A DNA stretch of 64,000 nucleotides from Georgenia sp. SYP-B2076 (GTDB lineage: Bacteria > Actinomycetota > Actinomycetes > Actinomycetales > Actinomycetaceae): positions 62,001 to 126,000 of the forward strand of contig NZ_RXOZ01000035.1 in NCBI RefSeq assembly GCF_003991205.1. Direction: 5' to 3'. Numbering within the stretch: position 1 is the stretch's first letter; the number at the start of each line of letters is the position of its first letter. Shown here piece by piece: positions 42,381 to 57,328 of the stretch. The position numbers were made by a program, and so were the translations under genes. The notes beneath the pieces were generated by a model, which was not told where the DNA came from, searched no databases, and worked only from the letters and a program-made list of their open reading frames with translations.

Positions 42381-42920
42381 TCAGGCGAGCCGACTGTGCG
42401 TGCCCAGGTGGTGGTAGGTGCGGCCCTTGTACACCAGCGGGTTCTCGCTGCGGCTGTGCTCCGCGAGCAGCGCGTGGACCGTGATCAGGAGGCTGTCACC
42501 CACGGGTACCCGCTGCTCGATCCGCCCGCGGACCCAGGCCGTGGTTCCGCCGAGCACGGGCTCGCCGGCGGGCAGGGGGCACCAGTCGACGCCGGCGAAC
42601 CGGTCCACGCCGCGCGCGGCGAACCGGGTCGCGACGTCGTGCTGCTCGGCCGCGAGGAGGTTGACCACAACCGTGTCGTTCTCCTCGAGCGCGCGGCGCG
42701 AGGAGGACGTGGCGGCGAGGGAGAACGCGAGCATGGGCGGGGCGGCCGAGACGGAGATGACCGACGTCGCGGTGAAACCCACCGGTCCGTGGGGCGTGCG
42801 CAGGGTGATGACGGCGACGCCGGCGGGGTGGTGACGGAAGATCGCCTTGAAGTCGTCCTCGCCGACCTCGCCCGCGCCCGCGACGATGGGGTGAAGCTCG
42901 AGGCTGTGGTCCACGCTCAT
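42381..42920 (-). CDS. Flavin reductase-like protein (DIM6/NTAB family)
   Basis: FMN-binding split-barrel reductase, 179 residues, of the type that supplies reduced flavin to two-component monooxygenases. Landmarks: FRHHPAGVAVITLRTPHGPVGFTATSVISVSAAPPMLAFSL (residues 28-68, read in two parts) and VDWCPLPAGEPVLGG. The start overlaps the stop of the preceding NADPH:FMN reductase (ATGA), so the two are co-translated. Lying opposite a riboswitch-controlled monooxygenase suggests a role in flavin-dependent sulfur or carbon oxidation. Confidence 0.85.
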   Translation of the reverse strand: MSVDHSLELHPIVAGAGEVGEDDFKAIFRHHPAGVAVITLRTPHGPVGFTATSVISVSAAPPMLAFSLAATSSSRRALEENDTVVVNLLAAEQHDVATRFAARGVDRFAGVDWCPLPAGEPVLGGTTAWVRGRIEQRVPVGDSLLITVHALLAEHSRSENPLVYKGRTYHHLGTHSRLA

Positions 42921-43450
42921 GCCAGGCTCCGCTCGCGGCGCGCCGCCGCGCCCCGGAGCGCCGCGCCGTTGGCCTCGAGCCAGGCGTCGATCACGGCGTC
43001 CAGCTCGGGAAGCTGGGCCTCGGTCAGCACCAGCGCCCGGGTGGGGACCTCGGCGCCGAGCTCGACGAGGAGCGGGCGCAGGTGGACCTCGGCCGCAAGG
43101 AGGTGGGCCGGGTTGCCGGCGACCTGAAGCGGGACGGCGACGACGCCGGCGAGGCCGTTGTTGCCGTACAGGTCGAGGAAGGACTTCAGCAGGCCCGTGT
43201 AGGTGGCCTTGTAGGTCGGGGTGGCGACGATGAGGACTCTCGCGCCGGACACCGTGGCGCTGGCCGCGTCCGCGCGGGGGTGCTCGGGGGAGAAGATCTC
43301 CTCTGCCACCTCGGCGAGGTCGATGACCGCGGGTTCACCGGCGTCCAGATCGTCGGCCACGCGTGCGGCGACCCGCTCGGCCACCGCGCGGGTGCGCGAG
43401 CCGGGACGTGGGTTGCCGGAGAGGGCGACGACGGTTGGTGTTGTGCTCAT
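42917..43450 (-). CDS. NADPH-dependent FMN reductase (SsuE/MsuE-like)
   Basis: Flavodoxin-fold reductase, 177 residues. LSGNPRPGSRTRAVAERV is the phosphate-binding loop (SGSxRxxS type), and VLIVATPTYKATYTGLLKSFLDLYGNNGLAG is the FMN/dimer segment of SsuE/MsuE and related enzymes. GGAGG precedes the ATG. It is the first gene of a two-gene unit transcribed away from the SAM-riboswitch locus. Supplying FMNH2 to the LLM monooxygenase across the divide, or to others in this window, is inferred from context. Confidence 0.85.
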   Translation of the reverse strand: MSTTPTVVALSGNPRPGSRTRAVAERVAARVADDLDAGEPAVIDLAEVAEEIFSPEHPRADAASATVSGARVLIVATPTYKATYTGLLKSFLDLYGNNGLAGVVAVPLQVAGNPAHLLAAEVHLRPLLVELGAEVPTRALVLTEAQLPELDAVIDAWLEANGAALRGAAARRERSLA

Positions 43451-43733
43451 GACGAACCTCCGGCTCGGGGGCCTTGTAGGAAGTGGCCGATCATGACGCT
43501 AGGTCCCGCTCTCACGGCCCGGCGCCGCCGCCCGGCACCGTCTCGCCACGGGAGACGCCGGCCGCCAGATCCGAGCCCGTTCTCACATCGCGAGAATCCG
43601 GGCGACCGGCGAGCGCGACTGGCGGCCGGCGGCGGACGCCGTCCTCGGGCCAACGCCGACCCGGCCGGGCGGCGCCCGGGGCGCGGCGGTCGCGGCGGGC
43701 CCGCCCGGGAGCATGACACCAGGTGAGCGGTAA
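43451..43733. other. Divergent intergenic region, FMN-reductase side
   Basis: No gene is supported. A minus-strand TAGCGT at about 43491-43496 may be the -10 of the FMN-reductase promoter. An inverted repeat, TTCTC-N7-GAGAA (43580-43596), lies in the middle and could be an operator. Confidence 0.5.
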
Positions 43734-43762
43734 TTGACACGGGAAAGAAGTTTCCCTAGCGT
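43734..43762 (+). promoter_or_regulatory. Strong promoter with a palindromic operator in the spacer
   Basis: TTGACA (43734-43739), 17-bp spacer, TAGCGT (43757-43762). The spacer contains GGGAAAGAAGTTTCCC (43741-43756), a perfect 6-4-6 inverted repeat. A protein bound there would block RNA polymerase, so a repressor operator is likely; no regulator gene adjoins. Transcription would begin just before the riboswitch. Confidence 0.7.
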
Positions 43763-43769
43763 CGGGCTA

Positions 43770-43881
43770 AAGGTTCAGAGTGCCAGTGCGCATCCGCGCA
43801 AAGCCCCGGCTTGCTGGTCGACAACCCCCCACGTGCGGGGGGTGCCCCGGGTGACAACCAGGCCCTGCCACGAGGCAGGGC
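43770..43881 (+). ncRNA. SAM-IV-type riboswitch
   Basis: The segment GAGTGCCAGTG, GCCCCGGCTTGCTGG, ACAACCCCCC and GGTGCCCCGGGTGACAACC follows the SAM-IV (actinobacterial S-adenosylmethionine riboswitch) consensus nearly word for word. Visible helices: outer GGTT/AACC (43773-43776 with 43856-43859), GCCAG/CTGGT, CCCCCC/GGGGGG, and a downstream hairpin GCCCTGCC-ACGA-GGCAGGGC (43862-43881). It sits immediately after a strong promoter and upstream of a leader peptide and an LLM monooxygenase gene. The class normally turns genes off at high SAM. Class assignment is by eye from memory of the consensus. Confidence 0.85.
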
Positions 43882-43931
43882 AAGGCAGTGGCACCCCAGG
43901 GTGCATGAGCACGAAGGAAACCAGGACGACC

Positions 43932-44021
43932 ATGAACACGCCCGTGAGCCCCAGGCAGAACGTCTTCTCGCCTCGCCGCTCGATGTGCATGTGCATGTGC
44001 CGTTCGCGAATGTCCCTCTGA
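43932..44021 (+). CDS. Met/Cys-rich leader peptide, 29 aa
   Basis: A short frame, MNTPVSPRQNVFSPRRS followed by MCMCMC and RSRMSL, with an AGGA five nt upstream; an in-frame ATG at 43905 would extend it by nine residues. ATG and TGC codons alternate three times at 43983-44000. Cys-rich leader peptides control sulfur genes in actinobacteria by ribosome stalling; here Met and Cys codons are mixed, so charging of either tRNA could be sensed. It lies between the SAM-IV aptamer and the monooxygenase gene. Translation and attenuation are inferred. Confidence 0.7.
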   Translation: MNTPVSPRQNVFSPRRSMCMCMCRSRMSL

Positions 44022-44179
44022 CGACATTCCCAGCGACGCCCCGGCGCACCTCGCGCTGACGCGTCACCCCTGACCAGAGCCCCCTCGCCGGGTGAGTGGC
44101 ACACCACGGCAAGGGACTGGCCGGTCAGCCTTCCTTCATGCAGCGCCATGCGCGACGACACCCCTGGATGTGTGCACCC

Positions 44180-45256
44180 ATGTCTGTTTCCCGCCTTCCC
44201 TCTCGCTCCTCCGGCCCCTCCTCCGCCCAGGCCACGCTCGGCCTGGACCTGACCGGGCTGGGCGTCAACCCGTCCTCCGACGGCTTTTCCGCCGACCTTC
44301 CCGTCGAGAAGGCCAACCTCGCCAAGCTCGCGTCCTACACTCGCGCGGCGCACGACGGCGGGCTCTCGTTCGTCTCCATCGGTGAGCAGTTCCGCCTGCG
44401 CAGCGACCGCGCGCTGCGCACGGACGCCTGGCTCGACCCGGTCGTCGCCGCCCGCCGGATCAGCCCCCACGCGGGAGCGGCGGGCCTCGTCGCCACCGTG
44501 CCGATCCAGGGCGCAGACCTGGGCCTCGTCGCCGGCGAGCTCGCGCAGGTCACCCGCGCCGGTGGCACCTGGGCCGGGCTGGAGCTCGCCGGGCACGCCG
44601 GCAGCGCGGACGCCCTCGCCAACACCCTCGCCGGCGTGAGCCGCTCGTTCCCGTCGGCGCGGGCCGGCTCGCAGCGCGCGCCCCGTCCGCAGGTCGTCGT
44701 GCCGGTGGGCACGGAGTCCGAGATCGAGCTGGCGGGCGAGTTCGCCGACGTCGTCCGCATCCGCGAGCACGACCTCGAGTGGGCGCGCGAGCTGCGCTAC
44801 GCCGTGCGGGCCTCGGCCCGCGCCGCCGGCCGTCAGGATGTCCGCGTACTCGTCGACCTGCACACGGTCGTGTCGGCCGACCGTCAGGCCGCCGAGGAGC
44901 GCGCGGCGCTGGTGGCCGACATCGCCGGGGAGAACGCGCCGTGGACCGGTGCGCTCAGCGCGGTCGGCACGGCGTGTGACGTGGCCGACGTCATCCAGAC
45001 CTGGGTGCGGGCCGGCGCGGCGGACGGGTTCGTCGTCCTGCCCGGCTCGCTGCCCGCGGATGTGGTGGCCCTCCTGCGCGGCGTGGTCCCGGAGCTCCGC
45101 GCACGCGGGCTCGTCAGCGAGCAGGCCGTGGGCAACCGGGCCCCCGTGCGCCGTCCCCAGGACCCGGGTCAGGCTCGCGCCGCCTCTGCCGCGGCCCGCG
45201 TGGGCGCGCGGCCGGCCGCGCGCCGCGGCGCTTTGGCCGCGGTCCCCGTCGCCTGA
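44180..45256 (+). CDS. LLM-class flavin-dependent oxidoreductase under SAM-IV/leader-peptide control
   Basis: About 358 residues. The core begins TLGLDLTGLGVNP and ends with DVIQTWVRAGAADGFVVLPGSLPADVVALLRGVVPELRARG, the C-terminal signature of the SsuD/NtaA/SnaA group; a basic Ala/Arg tail follows. N-terminal wording is less conserved than usual. The start is uncertain: ATG 44180 was chosen near the domain edge, with 44138 and 44168 also possible; none has a good ribosome-binding site, so translation may depend on leader structure. The SAM-IV riboswitch and divergent FMN reductases suggest organosulfur or sulfonate oxidation. Confidence 0.78.
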   Translation: MSVSRLPSRSSGPSSAQATLGLDLTGLGVNPSSDGFSADLPVEKANLAKLASYTRAAHDGGLSFVSIGEQFRLRSDRALRTDAWLDPVVAARRISPHAGAAGLVATVPIQGADLGLVAGELAQVTRAGGTWAGLELAGHAGSADALANTLAGVSRSFPSARAGSQRAPRPQVVVPVGTESEIELAGEFADVVRIREHDLEWARELRYAVRASARAAGRQDVRVLVDLHTVVSADRQAAEERAALVADIAGENAPWTGALSAVGTACDVADVIQTWVRAGAADGFVVLPGSLPADVVALLRGVVPELRARGLVSEQAVGNRAPVRRPQDPGQARAASAAARVGARPAARRGALAAVPVA

Positions 45257-46901: not shown

Positions 46902-47897
46902 ATGACTCGCTTCGGGTACACCCTCATGACCGAGCAGAGCGGACCGAAGGAGCTGGTGCGCTACGCCGTCGGCGCCGAGCGCGTGGGCTTCGACTTCGAG
47001 GTCTCCTCCGACCACTACTTCCCGTGGCTGGACTCGATGGGGCACTCGCCCTACGCGTGGACGGTGCTGGGCGCGGTCGCGCAGGCCACCGAGCGGGTCG
47101 AGCTCATGACGTACGTGACGTGCCCGACCATGCGTTACCACCCGGCCGTCGTGGCCCAGAAGGCCGCGACGCTCGCCGTGCTCTCCGACGAGCGGTTCAT
47201 CCTCGGCCTCGGGGCGGGGGAGAACCTCAACGAGCACGTCGTCGGGGAGCGCTGGCCCGCCGTGGGGGAGCGCCACGACATGCTCGAGGAGGCGCTTCAC
47301 ATCATCCGCGAGCTGCTCGACGGCGAGCACCTCACCTACGAGGGGGAGCACTTCCGCGTCGACTCCGCCCGGCTGTGGGACGTGCCGGCGCGGCCCGTGG
47401 AGATCGGTGTGGCGGTCTCCGGCGAGCAGTCCGTCCACCGGTTCGCGACGATGGCCGACCATCTCGTCTCCACCCAGCCGACGGCGGAGCCGCTCAAGCT
47501 GTGGGCGAAGGTGCGCGGCGAGGCCGGGCTGGGCGCCTCCCGTTCGATCGGCCAGCTCCCCATCTGCTGGGACCCCGACGTCGACGCCGCCGTCGAACGT
47601 GCGCACCGGACCTTCCGCTGGTTCGGCGGCGGCTGGGGCGTGAACGCGGACCTCCCCACCACCCGCGGGTTCACGGATGCCAGCCAGTTCGTCCGGCCGG
47701 AGGACGTCGCCTCATCAATCCCCTGCGGCCCCGACCTCGACGCCATCGTCGAGGCGGTCTCGACCTTCTGGGACGCCGGCTTCACCGACATCGCCCTGGT
47801 GCAGGTGGGGGACGAGGGCCAGCAGGCCTTCCTCGACAACGCCGCCGGGCCGTTGCTGGAGAAGCTGCGCGCCGCGGCGCCGGACGGCGCGCACTGA
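46902..47897 (+). CDS. F420-dependent-type LLM oxidoreductase
   Basis: A 331-residue (beta/alpha)8 protein of the F420-binding group (TIGR03557-like). MTRFGYTLMTEQSGPKELVRYAVGAERVGFDFEVSSDHYFPWL (in parts), THG-less but with VELMTYVTCPTMRYHPAVVAQKAATLAVLSDERFILGLGAGENLNEHV-type sequence, and WVGGG-like FRWFGGGWG. Members reduce or oxidise substrates with F420 rather than FMN. F420 biosynthesis genes are not in the window, so cofactor use is family-based inference. Confidence 0.88.
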   Translation: MTRFGYTLMTEQSGPKELVRYAVGAERVGFDFEVSSDHYFPWLDSMGHSPYAWTVLGAVAQATERVELMTYVTCPTMRYHPAVVAQKAATLAVLSDERFILGLGAGENLNEHVVGERWPAVGERHDMLEEALHIIRELLDGEHLTYEGEHFRVDSARLWDVPARPVEIGVAVSGEQSVHRFATMADHLVSTQPTAEPLKLWAKVRGEAGLGASRSIGQLPICWDPDVDAAVERAHRTFRWFGGGWGVNADLPTTRGFTDASQFVRPEDVASSIPCGPDLDAIVEAVSTFWDAGFTDIALVQVGDEGQQAFLDNAAGPLLEKLRAAAPDGAH

Positions 47898-54195: not shown

Positions 54196-54215
54196 TCAGG
54201 CCCTGACCTGGCGCG
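54176..54215 (-). repeat. 20-bp tandem duplication spanning a stop codon
   Basis: tcaggcccgggcctggcgcg and tcaggccctgacctggcgcg (plus strand), 18 of 20 identical. The copy at 54196-54215 holds the stop of the CoA-binding gene (TGA on the minus strand). Confidence 0.9.
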
Positions 54216-54693
54216 CGGAGGAGATCACGCCCGTGTTGAAGCCCGCCAGGTGGAGCCCGCCGTGGAAGCGGGCGTGCTCGATCTTGAGGCAGCGGTCCAT
54301 CACGACCTGCACGCCGGCCGCCTCGGCGTCGCGCGCCACCTCCTCGTGCCAGGACCCCAGCTGCAGCCACAGGGTCTTGGCGCCCACCGCCTTGGTCTCC
54401 TCCAGGACCTGCGGGAGGTCGTCGTGCCTGCGGAAGACGTCGACGAGGTCCGGCGCCTCGGGCAGGTCGGCGAGGGAGGGGTAGACCGGCCGGCCGAGGA
54501 TCTCCTTGACCACGGGATTGACGAAGTACACCGTGTACGGCGAGGACGAGAGCAGGTAGGTCGACACGAAGTACGACGCGCGCGACGGCTTGTCCGAGGC
54601 GCCCACGATCGCGATCGACCTGGTGCCGCGCAGGATGCCCAGGCGCTCGACGGCGGACGGTCCCACCCACGTCCGCTCGGCGACGGCGCTCAT
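54196..54693 (-). CDS. CoA-binding domain protein
   Basis: A 165-residue Rossmann-fold protein. SIAIVGASDKPSRASYFVSTYLL, VYFVNP and GVQVVMDRCLKIEH match stand-alone CoA_binding_2 proteins (YccU-like). It is the last gene of the acs-sfnG-metY operon, its ATG overlapping the metY stop. A CoA- or acyl-CoA-binding partner for the acetyl-CoA-handling enzymes is plausible but unproven. Its stop codon is copied in a tandem 20-bp duplication. Confidence 0.85.
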   Translation of the reverse strand: MSAVAERTWVGPSAVERLGILRGTRSIAIVGASDKPSRASYFVSTYLLSSSPYTVYFVNPVVKEILGRPVYPSLADLPEAPDLVDVFRRHDDLPQVLEETKAVGAKTLWLQLGSWHEEVARDAEAAGVQVVMDRCLKIEHARFHGGLHLAGFNTGVISSARQVRA

Positions 54694-56147
54694 GCCTGCA
54701 CCCCCGACGTGATCGCGCAGGCCGGCGCGACGCGCGCGGCGACCGGGACCGGGGCGGCCCCGCCGGCCGGGGCCGGCGCGGAGGCGGGCACCGCCGCGGT
54801 GGCGGCCTCCTCCTGCGCCGCTCCGGCGGCTCGGCCCTCCCGGGTGCGCCCGGTCGCCCGGGTCAGCGCCTGGTCGAGGTCCCAGAGGATGTCCTCGACG
54901 TCCTCCAGGCCCACGGAGAGGCGGATCAGGTCCTCGCCGACGCCCGCGGACACCATCTGCTCGGCCGTCAGCTGGCGGTGCGTCGTCGAGCCCGGATGCA
55001 GCACGAGCGTCTTGGCGTCGCCGACGTTCGCGAGGTGGCTGGCCAGCTGGAGGGACCCGATGAAGACCTCGCCGACCTCCCGCGCGGACCGCTCACCGGT
55101 GGGCGCGACCCCGAAGGCGAAGACGGACCCGACACCGAGCGGCAGGTACTTCCGGGCGCGCTCGTGGTGGGGGTGCCCCGGCAGCCCCGCGTAGTTGACG
55201 TAGGCGATGCGGGGATCGGTGTCCAGCCACGCAGCGACCTCCTTGGCGCCCGCCAGGTGGGCGTCCATCCGCTGGGGCAGCGTCTCGATGCCCTGGAGGA
55301 GCTGGAACGCCGACTGCGCCGAGAGCGACGGCCCGATGTCCCGCAGCTGCTCCGAGCGCAGCTTGGTGAGGAAGCCGTACTCGCCGAAGTTGTCCCACCA
55401 CGAGATGTTGCCGTAGGACGCGACGGGCTCGGTCATCGTGGGGAACTTCCCGTTGCCCCAGTTGAAGCGCCCCGACTCGACGACGACGCCGCCCAGGGTG
55501 GTGCCATGACCCCCGAGGAACTTCGTGGCCGAGTGGATGACGATGTCCGCGCCGTGCTCGAAGGGGCGCAGCAGGTACGGCGTCGACAGGGTGGCGTCGA
55601 CGACGAGCGGGACGCCGGCGTCGTGCGCCACCTTGGCCAGGCCCTCGAGATCCGCCACCTCGCCGGACGGGTTCGCCACCGTCTCGGTGTAGAGCGCCTT
55701 CGTCTCCGGGCGGATGGCCGCCGCGAAGTCGGCCGGGTCCGTGCCGGCGACGAAGGTCGTGTCGACCCCGAAGCGGCGCAGGGTGACGTCGAGCTGGGTC
55801 ACCGTGCCGCCGTAGAGCTGGGAGGACGCGACGATGTGGTCGCCCGCCTGGGTCAGCGCCGCGAAGGTGATGAACTCCGCGGCCATGCCGGACGCCGTCG
55901 CGACCGCGCCGATGCCGCCCTCCAGGGAGGCGACGCGCTCCTCGAACGCGGCGACCGTGGGGTTGGAGATGCGGGAGTAGATGTTCCCGTACTTCTGCAG
56001 CGCGAAGAGGTTGGCGGCGTCGTCCGTGCTGCTGAACACGAAGGACGTGGACTGGTAGATGGGCACCGCGCGGGCGCCGTGCTCGGCGTCGGGCGTGCCG
56101 CCGGCGTGCAGCGCCCGCGTGCGGAACCCGAACTGGTGGTCGCTCAT
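54690..56147 (-). CDS. metY: O-acetylhomoserine sulfhydrylase-type enzyme
   Basis: PLP-dependent Cys/Met-metabolism enzyme, 485 residues; adds sulfide to O-acetyl- (or O-succinyl-) homoserine. FRTRALHAGGTPDAEHGARAVPIYQSTSF, GNIYSRISNPTVAAFEERVASLEGG and PLP Lys209 in HSATKFLGGHG identify it, and WGNGKFPTMTEP is characteristic of the OAH-sulfhydrylase branch. About 45 extra C-terminal residues are Ala/Pro-rich. It overlaps sfnG upstream and the CoA-binding gene downstream (ATGA each), so sulfur released by SfnG-dependent pathways would be captured here. Confidence 0.92.
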   Translation of the reverse strand: MSDHQFGFRTRALHAGGTPDAEHGARAVPIYQSTSFVFSSTDDAANLFALQKYGNIYSRISNPTVAAFEERVASLEGGIGAVATASGMAAEFITFAALTQAGDHIVASSQLYGGTVTQLDVTLRRFGVDTTFVAGTDPADFAAAIRPETKALYTETVANPSGEVADLEGLAKVAHDAGVPLVVDATLSTPYLLRPFEHGADIVIHSATKFLGGHGTTLGGVVVESGRFNWGNGKFPTMTEPVASYGNISWWDNFGEYGFLTKLRSEQLRDIGPSLSAQSAFQLLQGIETLPQRMDAHLAGAKEVAAWLDTDPRIAYVNYAGLPGHPHHERARKYLPLGVGSVFAFGVAPTGERSAREVGEVFIGSLQLASHLANVGDAKTLVLHPGSTTHRQLTAEQMVSAGVGEDLIRLSVGLEDVEDILWDLDQALTRATGRTREGRAAGAAQEEAATAAVPASAPAPAGGAAPVPVAARVAPACAITSGVQA

Positions 56148-57328
56148 CGGGCCGTCGCCAGGCTGTGGCGGGCGTCGCGCGCGGCGCCGATCGGGGGCAG
56201 CAGGCCGGTGTCGAGCTCGGTCCCGTTCTTGCGGGCCAGGTCCGCCTCGAGCTCGCGGACGATCGGCAGGACGTCCCGGCCGAAGGCCTCGACCTCCTCC
56301 TGGAAGTGCAGGTAGCAGGTGAGGAACAGGTTCACGCCGATCTTCTTGTACTCCACGATCCGCTCGGCGATCTGCTCGGGGGTGCCGATCAGCTGGGTGC
56401 GGAAGCCGTCGTTGTACTGGACGAGGTCCTCGAAGGTCGAGTCCGCCCACATGCCCTTGCCGTCCTTGGTGGACTGACCGGCCTCCTTCACCGCGGAGGC
56501 GAAGCCCTCGACGGCGGGCCGGTGCGCCTTAGCGACGATCTCGCGGAGGGTCTCCCTGGCCTCCTTCTCGCTCTCGCGGGCGATGACGAAGCCGTTGAGC
56601 CCGAACCGGGGCGCGCGCCCCGCCTCCGCGGCGGCGCGGGTGACCCCGGCGATGTTCTCCTTGAAGCCCTCGATGTCGCGGCCGTTGGAGAAGTACCAGT
56701 CCGCGGTGCGTCCCGCCGCGGCCTGGGCTGCGGTGGAGTTGCCGCCGAAGAAGATCTCCGGGTGGGGCCGGCCGGGCACGTCGATGGGCGGGGGGTTGAG
56801 CGTGAAGTTCTTGATGTCGTAGTACTTCCCGGGGAAGGAGAAGTCCTCCTCGGTCCACAGGCCGCGGAGCACGCGGATGAACTCCTCGGTGCGCACGTAG
56901 CGCTCGTCGTGCTCGAGCCACGGCAGGCCGAAGTTCACGAACTCGTCCTTGAGCCAGCCGGAGACGACGTTGACCGCCGCGCGGCCGCCGGAGAGGTGGT
57001 CCGCGGTGATGATGAACTTGGCGAGGACGCCCGGGTGCCACATCCCCGGGTGCACGGCCGAGATCACCTTGAGCCGCTCGGTGGCGAGCAGCAGCGCCAG
57101 GGAGAAGCTCGTCGCCTCGTGCTGCTTGTCCGCCCCGTAGCTGGCCGCGTAACGGGTCTGGGTCAGGGCGTACTCGAAGCCGCTGTCCTCGGCGATCCGG
57201 GCGAGGGTCTTGTTGTACTCGAAGTCCCAGCTGGTGCGCTGCTCGATGGTGCTCACCACCAGGCCGCCGGAGACGTTGGGGACCCAGTACGCGAACTTGA
57301 GGGGGGTGCGCAGGTCGATGGTGGTCAT
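56144..57328 (-). CDS. sfnG: Dimethylsulfone monooxygenase
   Basis: FMNH2-dependent LLM monooxygenase converting dimethyl sulfone to methanesulfinate. The N-terminus LKFAYWVPNVSGGLVVSTI, RYAASYGADKQHEATSFS, GWLKDEFVNFGLPWLEHDERY and IFFGGNSTAAQAAAGRTADWYF are the SfnG wording; 394 residues. AAGGA precedes the ATG, which also overlaps the acs stop. It needs a flavin reductase; two candidates are at 42381-43450. Substrate assignment is by family. Confidence 0.9.
   Translation of the reverse strand: MTTIDLRTPLKFAYWVPNVSGGLVVSTIEQRTSWDFEYNKTLARIAEDSGFEYALTQTRYAASYGADKQHEATSFSLALLLATERLKVISAVHPGMWHPGVLAKFIITADHLSGGRAAVNVVSGWLKDEFVNFGLPWLEHDERYVRTEEFIRVLRGLWTEEDFSFPGKYYDIKNFTLNPPPIDVPGRPHPEIFFGGNSTAAQAAAGRTADWYFSNGRDIEGFKENIAGVTRAAAEAGRAPRFGLNGFVIARESEKEARETLREIVAKAHRPAVEGFASAVKEAGQSTKDGKGMWADSTFEDLVQYNDGFRTQLIGTPEQIAERIVEYKKIGVNLFLTCYLHFQEEVEAFGRDVLPIVRELEADLARKNGTELDTGLLPPIGAARDARHSLATAR

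Follow-up and report, generated by a model that had tools for sequence, protein, structure and literature searches.

In Georgenia sp. SYP-B2076 the gene for a short flavin-dependent monooxygenase is preceded by a riboswitch aptamer of the S-adenosylmethionine (SAM)-IV class and, between aptamer and gene, by a short leader frame that ends in a run of methionine and cysteine codons. The window analysed is a stretch of 64,000 nucleotides (nt) of contig NZ_RXOZ01000035.1, positions 62,001 to 126,000, and all coordinates below are those of the window. As judged by sequence comparison, the aptamer, the Met/Cys leader and the gene, which encodes a protein of the luciferase-like monooxygenase (LLM) fold, are conserved as a unit. 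We think it reasonably likely that they form a two-stage sulfur sensor, in which the SAM-IV riboswitch would gate translation of the leader, and stalling at the Met/Cys codons at low SAM would open the start of the monooxygenase. The elements of the unit are these:

43772 to 43892, + strand: SAM-IV riboswitch aptamer (RF00634), matched by cmscan with 65.6 bits against a cut-off of 38.
43913 to 43919, + strand: Shine–Dalgarno sequence of the leader, GAAGGAA, in which GAAGG is unchanged across all 17 leaders aligned from the window's lineage.
43932 to 44021, + strand: leader open reading frame of 29 codons, MNTPVSPRQNVFSPRRSMCMCMCRSRMSL and a stop codon, recognised from its translation and conservation, with the Met/Cys codon run at 43983 to 44000.
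44180 to 45256, + strand: short flavin-dependent monooxygenase of 358 amino acids (aa) with a YtnJ/NtaA/DmoA-like LLM fold.

Across the whole window, cmscan gave a single match above the gathering thresholds, RF00634, which spans the full model (1-116) with an E value of 2.3e-9, and this is the only SAM-IV riboswitch found in the 4.28 Mb genome. The aptamer is thus a member of the class by covariance model, from which we infer that it binds SAM; the class was reportedly described by Weinberg and colleagues in 2008. An earlier reading of the letters without database searches (the sequence-only reading) had proposed both a SAM-IV-like riboswitch and a Met/Cys leader at this place. Both proposals are borne out, the first by the covariance-model search and the second by the 29-codon frame, which has its own Shine–Dalgarno sequence and a cluster conserved in relatives. 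That reading also put forward the hypothesis that the gene would sense SAM, Met-tRNA and Cys-tRNA together. Apart from the SAM-IV, an Rfam search of the window up to an E value of 5 returned a single match, of 13.6 bits, on the minus strand and overlapping the aptamer. This lies far under its cut-off, and the possibility of another known riboswitch behind the leader was rejected.

SAM-IV aptamers were searched for in 213 genomes of the family (35 matched), 396 of the order (226) and 394 of the class (262), and the matches were read in part. A Met/Cys leader was counted by a fixed rule: a start at most 90 nt from the aptamer, 12–55 codons, and Met or Cys at four or more of the last 15 positions. 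By this rule 37 of the 42 SAM-IV loci with a short LLM gene have such a leader, in four family-level groups whose leaders are otherwise unrelated. The 37 comprise all 17 loci of the window's genus (g1) and of g26, g31 and g21, all 18 from other families, the single locus L184 and one of six in genus g14, where six of 13 SAM-IV matches were examined. In the first set all 17 leaders are 28–31 codons long with the Met/Cys cluster at the end, and the leaders of the other families, for example MNQDRTPVPLRPALRFATCMMCCCSMSA, MAQAQVPGFGRSTRTTTGTCCMCMCLCTMA and MHQAGWQRTLAATRQARMCMCMSTCADRCCQR, are unrelated to the window's sequence. Conservation of the frame and its Met/Cys codons in relatives, which the sequence-only reading had put forward as a check, is therefore found at 37 of 42 short-LLM loci as against one of the 103 SAM-IV loci that were not recognised as belonging to such a gene (0 of 39, 0 of 58, 0 of 5 second loci in g1 and g26, and 1 of 1 in G110), a number that includes two LLM genes of related type, L163 and L164. 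The set that gave the 0/39, 0/5, G110 and g14 counts had 46 usable loci out of 47; that containing L184 had 59 out of 60, and at six of these 59, L184 and L162 among them, the script recognised no main gene.

The association also holds when approached from the gene. Searched at the protein level, 59 of the 396 genomes of the order yielded LLM homologues, and 30 loci were retrieved, 20 of which were given to cmscan (not sent were the window's own locus L083, L084–L087 of g26, L103 of g14, which has no cluster, and L093, L095, L108 and L109). A SAM-IV aptamer lies upstream of 18 of these 20, and all 18 have a Met/Cys leader; at the two LLM loci without SAM-IV, L099 and L105, no frame satisfies the Met/Cys rule. 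It is extremely improbable that the aptamer is a remnant and the leader alone regulates. The window's aptamer does score below many others, which reach about 121 bits, but its 65.6 bits are well above the cut-off, the aptamers of the congeners G102 and G106 score 89–92 bits and those at the LLM loci of other families 82.8–110, and the aptamer is kept at 18 of the 20 LLM loci, with no rule-satisfying frame at the other two.

Many of the other SAM-IV loci examined directly precede MetY-like or cysteine-desulfurase-like genes (judged by eye; L127, L129, L136 and L137, two of each kind, were confirmed by profile), whereas here the aptamer precedes a leader frame. The one leader among the 103 loci, in G110 (L051 / L118), is MQINSAAPRATTASSLMAACMCTCECRR, which with its SAM-IV lies upstream of a YeeE/YedE-type sulfur transporter (PF04143). 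The second SAM-IV loci of g1 and g26 (L034, L036 and others; G103a, G104a, G108a, G136a and G141a) have no Met/Cys leader, and in G104a the aptamer stands immediately before the gene for a 153-aa protein of unassigned function. Upstream of a longer LLM gene, L162 (G268) has a 24-aa frame with three Met and Cys in its last 15 residues, just under the threshold. At L115 957–1292 (G617) two divergent SAM-IV aptamers lie about 100 nt apart, and behind one of them is a frame ending SRRHVDLVRVASCTCR (L067), which presumably resembles known cysteine leaders.

The Met/Cys run of the window, ATGTGCATGTGCATGTGC, occurs once in the genome. The 35 leaders collected, which had been chosen with a Met/Cys filter (the fixed-rule counts were made separately), contain on average 6.5 Met and Cys in their last 15 residues and at least five in 34 cases, against a mean of 0.68 and a single case with at least five among 1,210 mechanical control frames of 20–50 aa from the fetched loci; that single control frame turns out to be a g14 leader. 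Within the final 45 nt of the 18 leaders outside f1, the window's lineage, ATG and TGY together are found 114 times in frame against 47 and 5 times in the other two frames, and ATG alone 47 times against 0 and 1, while Cys is encoded by TGC 31 times and by TGT 36 times. Other codons and nucleotides are used with the frame kept, so that the amino-acid content is conserved while the nucleotides change. Very unlikely, then, is the explanation that the ATGTGC repeat is maintained for pairing of the RNA with the leader's 5′ half or for the shape of the DNA, the frame being incidental. Minimum-energy folds of the window's lineage do pair the run with the region of the leader start, and (ATGTGC)n alternates purine and pyrimidine, but the other families use other codons, in frame and mostly without (ATGTGC)n, and the cluster is in frame with the start although the length of the leader ranges from 25 to 35 codons.

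Transcription and the position of the aptamer relative to the leader bear on what the riboswitch would control. The promoter is as follows:

43734 to 43762, + strand: promoter, with TTGACA at 43734–43739, a 17-nt spacer and TAGCGT at 43757–43762; the TTGACR box is common to 33 of 35 loci.

At these 33 of 35 homologous loci the TTGACR box is followed by a 17-nt spacer and the −10 element ends 8–10 nt ahead of the aptamer, so transcription is predicted to start with the aptamer's first base or an adjoining one. A SAM-IV transcript of Corynebacterium glutamicum was observed to start 2 nt ahead of its aptamer (PMC3890552; here and below, articles given by PMC number are cited from excerpts). The promoter had been picked out in the sequence-only reading and is real; the perfect inverted repeat in its spacer, which that reading took for an operator, does not survive comparison. 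The repeat, GGGAAA-N4-TTTCCC, exists, but it is present in one of 35 homologous promoters, the window's alone, and 6-bp inverted repeats with loops of 3–8 nt number 410 in the window, about 6.4 per kb. The palindromic operator was therefore rejected and the repeat is treated as chance. The leader starts 39 nt past the end of the aptamer, about 160 nt into the predicted transcript, and in all 35 leaders this distance from the aptamer is 19–42 nt. Where a gene start was recognised at other SAM-IV loci, it lies at 27–50 nt in 24 of 53 cases, with a median of 43. As the spacing falls within the range seen at many directly controlled genes, the SAM-IV most likely controls translation of the leader frame rather than acting directly on the monooxygenase start.

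Behind the Met/Cys run the RNA has conserved structure:

44008 to 44029, + strand: hairpin H1, a 7-bp stem GAATGTC/GACATTC with the stop codon of the leader in its loop, present in 15 of the 17 leaders of the window's lineage.
44032 to 44119, + strand: post-leader RNA domain (model R1) made up of hairpins H2 and H3, found by covariation and a genome search.
44035 to 44065, + strand: H2, stem 44035–44039 with 44061–44065, in which 98.9% of cells are paired and two pairs are double-changed.
44091 to 44105, + strand: H3, GGTG-AGTGGCA-CACC, with the heptaloop consensus [AC]GTG[AG]CA, recognised from the count of its loop and covariation in its stem.

The stem of H1 is GAATGTC with GACATTC or GACGTTC in seven leaders and GTATGTC with GACATAC in eight, with an A–U to U–A double change between the subgroups (both by eye). 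The alignment of H2 and H3 contains 19 sequences, 18 of them distinct, from two families, and has 95% of cells paired and six of ten pairs changed on both sides; of the 27 candidate rows it holds 19, since the near-duplicates G138 and G140 were dropped, as were G127, L097, L107, L111, L094 and L088, in which H2 or H3 did not align, a selection that favours structure. Among 500 shuffles none reached the observed values for percentage paired, double-change cells or covariation score, six reached that for double-changed pairs and 23 that for pair types; controls made by sliding the alignment score far below. Of the 35 leaders, 22 contain the H3 loop with a stem of at least four pairs, whereas shuffled sequences give 0.0006 per leader. 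The R1 covariance model has matches in 14 of the 297 genomes searched, and every one of them lies upstream of an LLM gene. Six of the matches lie outside the training rows (L190, L192, L193, L196, L197 and L200, the first two being near-duplicates of training rows), each behind a SAM-IV and a Met/Cys leader, and one non-training match has a new leader sequence (G449).

This domain was absent from the sequence-only reading and has no Rfam 15 match in the window, and RNAalifold on MAFFT alignments recovered the structure in part only. In the f1 and f13 leaders (window 44064–44101) a conserved UCAC after H2 faces GUGA in the loop of H3, and the two form a candidate for a possible pseudoknot. The post-leader RNA of the 35 leaders is rich in C (43.5% C, 29.8% G). 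A consensus scan of 43400–44300 showed no intrinsic terminator on the + strand. Classical attenuation through terminator and antiterminator was therefore set aside as unlikely, and the relay to the monooxygenase would probably be translational, Rho-dependent or both.

Closer to the gene, predicted pairings link the sequence after the aptamer to the monooxygenase start, and the Shine–Dalgarno sequence of the leader to a segment ahead of the gene:

43899 to 43907, + strand: segment GGGTGCATG behind the aptamer and complementary to the last nine bases before the monooxygenase start; supported in the window's genus only.
44171 to 44179, + strand: TGTGCACCC, directly before the monooxygenase ATG, the predicted partner of 43899–43907.
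44131 to 44137, + strand: TTCCTTC, complementary to the leader Shine–Dalgarno sequence GAAGGAA; the partner changes in g26.

The partners shift together in relatives, to GAGCACG/TGTGCTC in G102 and G109 and to GAAGGACGT/ACGTCCTTC in G137 (genus g26). When partners were swapped between leaders (12 of the 17 leaders of the window's lineage and 16 of the 18 others were used in the pairing tests, near-duplicates having been removed), native partners in the window's lineage gave −36.8 against −34.0 kcal/mol (p 0.003, n = 12). A swap of the whole leader frame against positions −60 to 0 of the gene gave p 0.015 in f1 (n = 12) and p 0.051 in the other families (n = 16). A helix proposed by RNAalifold between leader codons and the pre-gene region was not retained, the swap test being suggestive and not narrowed to one helix.

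In the two-stage sulfur sensor that we favour, the SAM-IV at the 5′ end of the transcript would govern translation of the leader. With SAM plentiful the leader would go untranslated, the RNA would stay folded and the monooxygenase would be off. At low SAM the leader would be translated, and where Met-tRNA or Cys-tRNA is scarce the ribosome would stall at the Met/Cys run; a stalled or queued ribosome would then hold open H1, the H2/H3 domain and the pairing that covers the monooxygenase start. The opened RNA would allow the monooxygenase to be translated and would probably be spared termination by Rho. The gene would be fully on only if SAM and Met/Cys are both short, which would suit a flavin monooxygenase that releases sulfur from organic compounds. 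The reverse polarity, with the leader repressing and SAM derepressing, is unlikely since a sulfur-scavenging gene would then be on in times of plenty. A more elaborate version, which we regard as rather doubtful and of which the literature searched gave no description, has three layers: SAM-IV would gate the leader, the Met/Cys codons would read two charged tRNAs and the H2/H3 domain would be a further sensor or a protein-binding site that decides on opening. If true, the leader would act as a logic gate that integrates SAM, Met-tRNA and Cys-tRNA, and possibly one more signal.

A number of observations weigh against the two-stage sensor or narrow it. At L163 (G268) and L164 (G218), NtaA/DmoA-type LLM genes that lack a Met/Cys leader follow a SAM-IV at a distance of 32 and 27 nt, so that SAM-IV can control such genes directly. 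H3 with at least four pairs was missed in 13 of the 35 leaders and R1 was found in 14 of 297 genomes though the gene is present in 59 of the order's 396 genomes, which places the H2/H3 domain at part of the loci only; from its distribution it is tied to the short-LLM gene, yet not at every such locus. As to the pairing over the gene start, the shuffle P is 0.014–0.092 in seven of 12 sequences of the window's genus and weaker in the other five, the swap test gave no support in other families (p 0.24, n = 16), and the main genes there have mostly ordinary Shine–Dalgarno sequences. A single universal pairing over the start was thus rejected: the last step cannot be one universal structure, and the pairing would be lineage-specific at best.

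The leader peptide itself raises further points of this kind. Within six leader groups the ratio of non-synonymous to synonymous polymorphism (pN/pS) is 0.54–1.00, so the peptide is without strong purifying selection, and dN/dS was discarded as proof of coding because these values are not decisive. Of the six loci examined in genus g14, five carry homologous leaders in which three or four internal Met are preserved: four of these lack Cys altogether and contain three Met, and the fifth combines four Met with a single Cys. The sixth locus, L005, is without a Met/Cys cluster. Taken over the g14 loci (L005, L008–L011 and L014), Met is retained and nearly all Cys lost, as in MALTNNIQTAGQRVSAPFHLRRMRMWHKSMA, which makes these leaders a natural variant for telling Met sensing from Cys sensing.

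Such losses are what might be seen if the leader were translated but its Met/Cys content were no sensor, translation serving to keep Rho off or to couple initiation, with SAM-IV as the sole input. Four of six g14 leaders without a Cys codon and a C-rich spacer free of terminators are consistent with this, as are the riboswitch and upstream open reading frame (uORF) systems of Mycobacterium tuberculosis, described without amino-acid sensing in the excerpts of PMC11260477 and PMC12810186. We nevertheless consider it unlikely: Met/Cys clusters recur in unrelated leaders of four family-level groups, at 34 of 35 leaders against one of 1,210 controls, and 102 of the 103 other SAM-IV loci have no such leader. 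Alternatively, the Met/Cys-rich small protein could itself be the product, handling metal, thiol or flavin and produced along with the monooxygenase under SAM-IV control. Both Met and Cys commonly serve as metal ligands. The conserved Mbox-controlled uORF of M. tuberculosis may also be a functional protein (PMC12810186). Here, however, the families share the Met/Cys cluster only, while the N-terminal halves differ and pN/pS within groups is as given above; the order and spacing of Met and Cys vary too, which codon sensing fits better, and a small-protein product seems to us distinctly improbable.

For the two-stage sensor the nature of the gene also matters. It starts 158 nt past the stop codon of the leader and has no clear Shine–Dalgarno sequence; other in-frame ATGs exist upstream but were rejected as starts, since 44180 aligns with ATG or GTG in 17 aligned sequences. 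The protein scores 71.2 bits with the NtaA/DmoA-type profile TIGR03860, which lies under the cut-off of 279.7 and indicates relatedness of fold only, and Pfam gave no match in it, though 13 of 24 orthologues match the luciferase-like family. Its relatives in the PDB by phmmer are YtnJ/CmoJ, DmoA and BdsA, and phmmer and Foldseek together place it near YtnJ/CmoJ and the nitrilotriacetate, dimethyl sulfide and dibenzothiophene sulfone monooxygenases. An AlphaFold2 model (predicted local distance difference test score, pLDDT, 82) has YtnJ as its top Foldseek neighbour (E 5.9e-17); this structure search on a predicted model supports the LLM fold and says nothing for a substrate. The sequence-only reading, which had named an LLM oxidoreductase lacking a clear ribosome-binding site, was right at the level of fold by the sub-threshold TIGR03860 score, phmmer and Foldseek, and right about the Shine–Dalgarno sequence. 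A named relative, from Georgenia subflava, is 69% identical, and a plasmid collection gave partial LLM matches only, none covering 80%.

The neighbouring genes are consistent with a role in sulfur metabolism:

42917 to 43450, − strand: NADPH-dependent FMN reductase, SsuE/MsuE-like and divergent (PF03358; TIGR03567 94 bits, below its cut-off).
42381 to 42920, − strand: flavin reductase, divergent (PF01613, E 2.3e-33).
54196 to 57328, − strand: organosulfur gene group about 10 kb from the monooxygenase, with SfnG, MetY and a CoA-binding protein.

The YtnJ/DmoA-like fold together with the adjacent flavin reductases suggests that the SAM-IV lies in the 5′ leader of a sulfur-related gene, and the monooxygenase likely frees sulfur from organic compounds. 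In the organosulfur group the dimethylsulfone monooxygenase SfnG matches TIGR04021 with 617.6 bits and the O-acetylhomoserine sulfhydrylase MetY matches TIGR01326 with 566.5 bits; the cmscan of the whole window showed no SAM-IV before this metY. A second LLM gene, of the F420-dependent type TIGR03557 (476 bits), lies at 46902–47897 on the + strand between a DUF222 gene and a Ku gene.

Several known leaders share features with this one. The mgtA leader of Salmonella combines sensing of Mg2+ with the leader peptide mgtL; it is alike in joining ion sensing and a codon-sensing peptide in one leader, and differs in signals, structure and lineage. A close parallel for the peptide is metL, the leader MSTTSDRTPATEATTTPGARCMCRRMCAF that precedes metNIQ in Streptomyces lividans (PMC8079986). 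It too mixes Met and Cys over 29 aa, finishes in a CMC..MC cluster and lies ahead of a sulfur amino acid gene, with no clear terminator. Unlike the window's leader, the metL transcript is described there as leaderless, so that its mRNA has no aptamer, and the gene is different; the S. lividans SAM-IV is listed in the same excerpts at a gene other than metNIQ. Candidate cysteine attenuator leaders have been proposed for actinobacterial cys operons (PMC1262725). Like the window's leader, these and the polycysteine frames of mycobacteria belong to sulfur genes, have their Cys codons towards the end of a short reading frame and, in the parts consulted, show no obvious terminator. The polycysteine small open reading frames of mycobacteria (Canestrari et al, 2020, as cited in PMC9094748 and PMC13236596) are, by the title, polycysteine and leaderless, whereas the window's frame mixes Met and Cys, has a Shine–Dalgarno sequence, follows an aptamer and lies about 160 nt past the predicted transcript start, and so falls outside that definition.

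The joining of a riboswitch and a uORF in one leader is known from M. tuberculosis, where the Mbox-rv1805A leader has riboswitch control of a uORF and Rho-dependent termination (PMC12810186) and B12 riboswitches occur with uORFs (PMC11260477). The Mbox directly controls its uORF, whether termination depends on translation of the uORF being left open by the authors in the excerpt, and expression of ppe2 requires uORF translation. These systems differ from the window's in their ligands, and in the portions of both articles that we cite the uORFs are not described as amino-acid sensors.

Among the matches listed in a search of the open-access literature, we found no description of a SAM-IV joined with a leader peptide. 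The articles that name SAM-IV riboswitch, leader peptide and cysteine treat them separately in the excerpts available, and the term 'leader peptide' is absent from a review of tandem riboswitches. The parts, namely SAM-IV, a Met/Cys leader and a riboswitch-linked uORF, are thus known separately, and what appears to be new is their combination. The stacked arrangement that the sequence-only reading had considered undescribed stands for the SAM-IV, the Met/Cys leader and the LLM gene, conserved as a unit at 37 of 42 loci; its palindromic operator, at one of 35 promoters, drops out.

If the two-stage model holds, one leader would read both the end product SAM and the two charged sulfur-amino-acid tRNAs. 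Aptamers and ribosome-sensing leaders, usually seen as alternatives, would be joined in series in several actinobacterial families, and serial sensing as a source of AND logic becomes testable. The leader would also single out an uncharacterised set of short flavin monooxygenases that probably scavenge sulfur.

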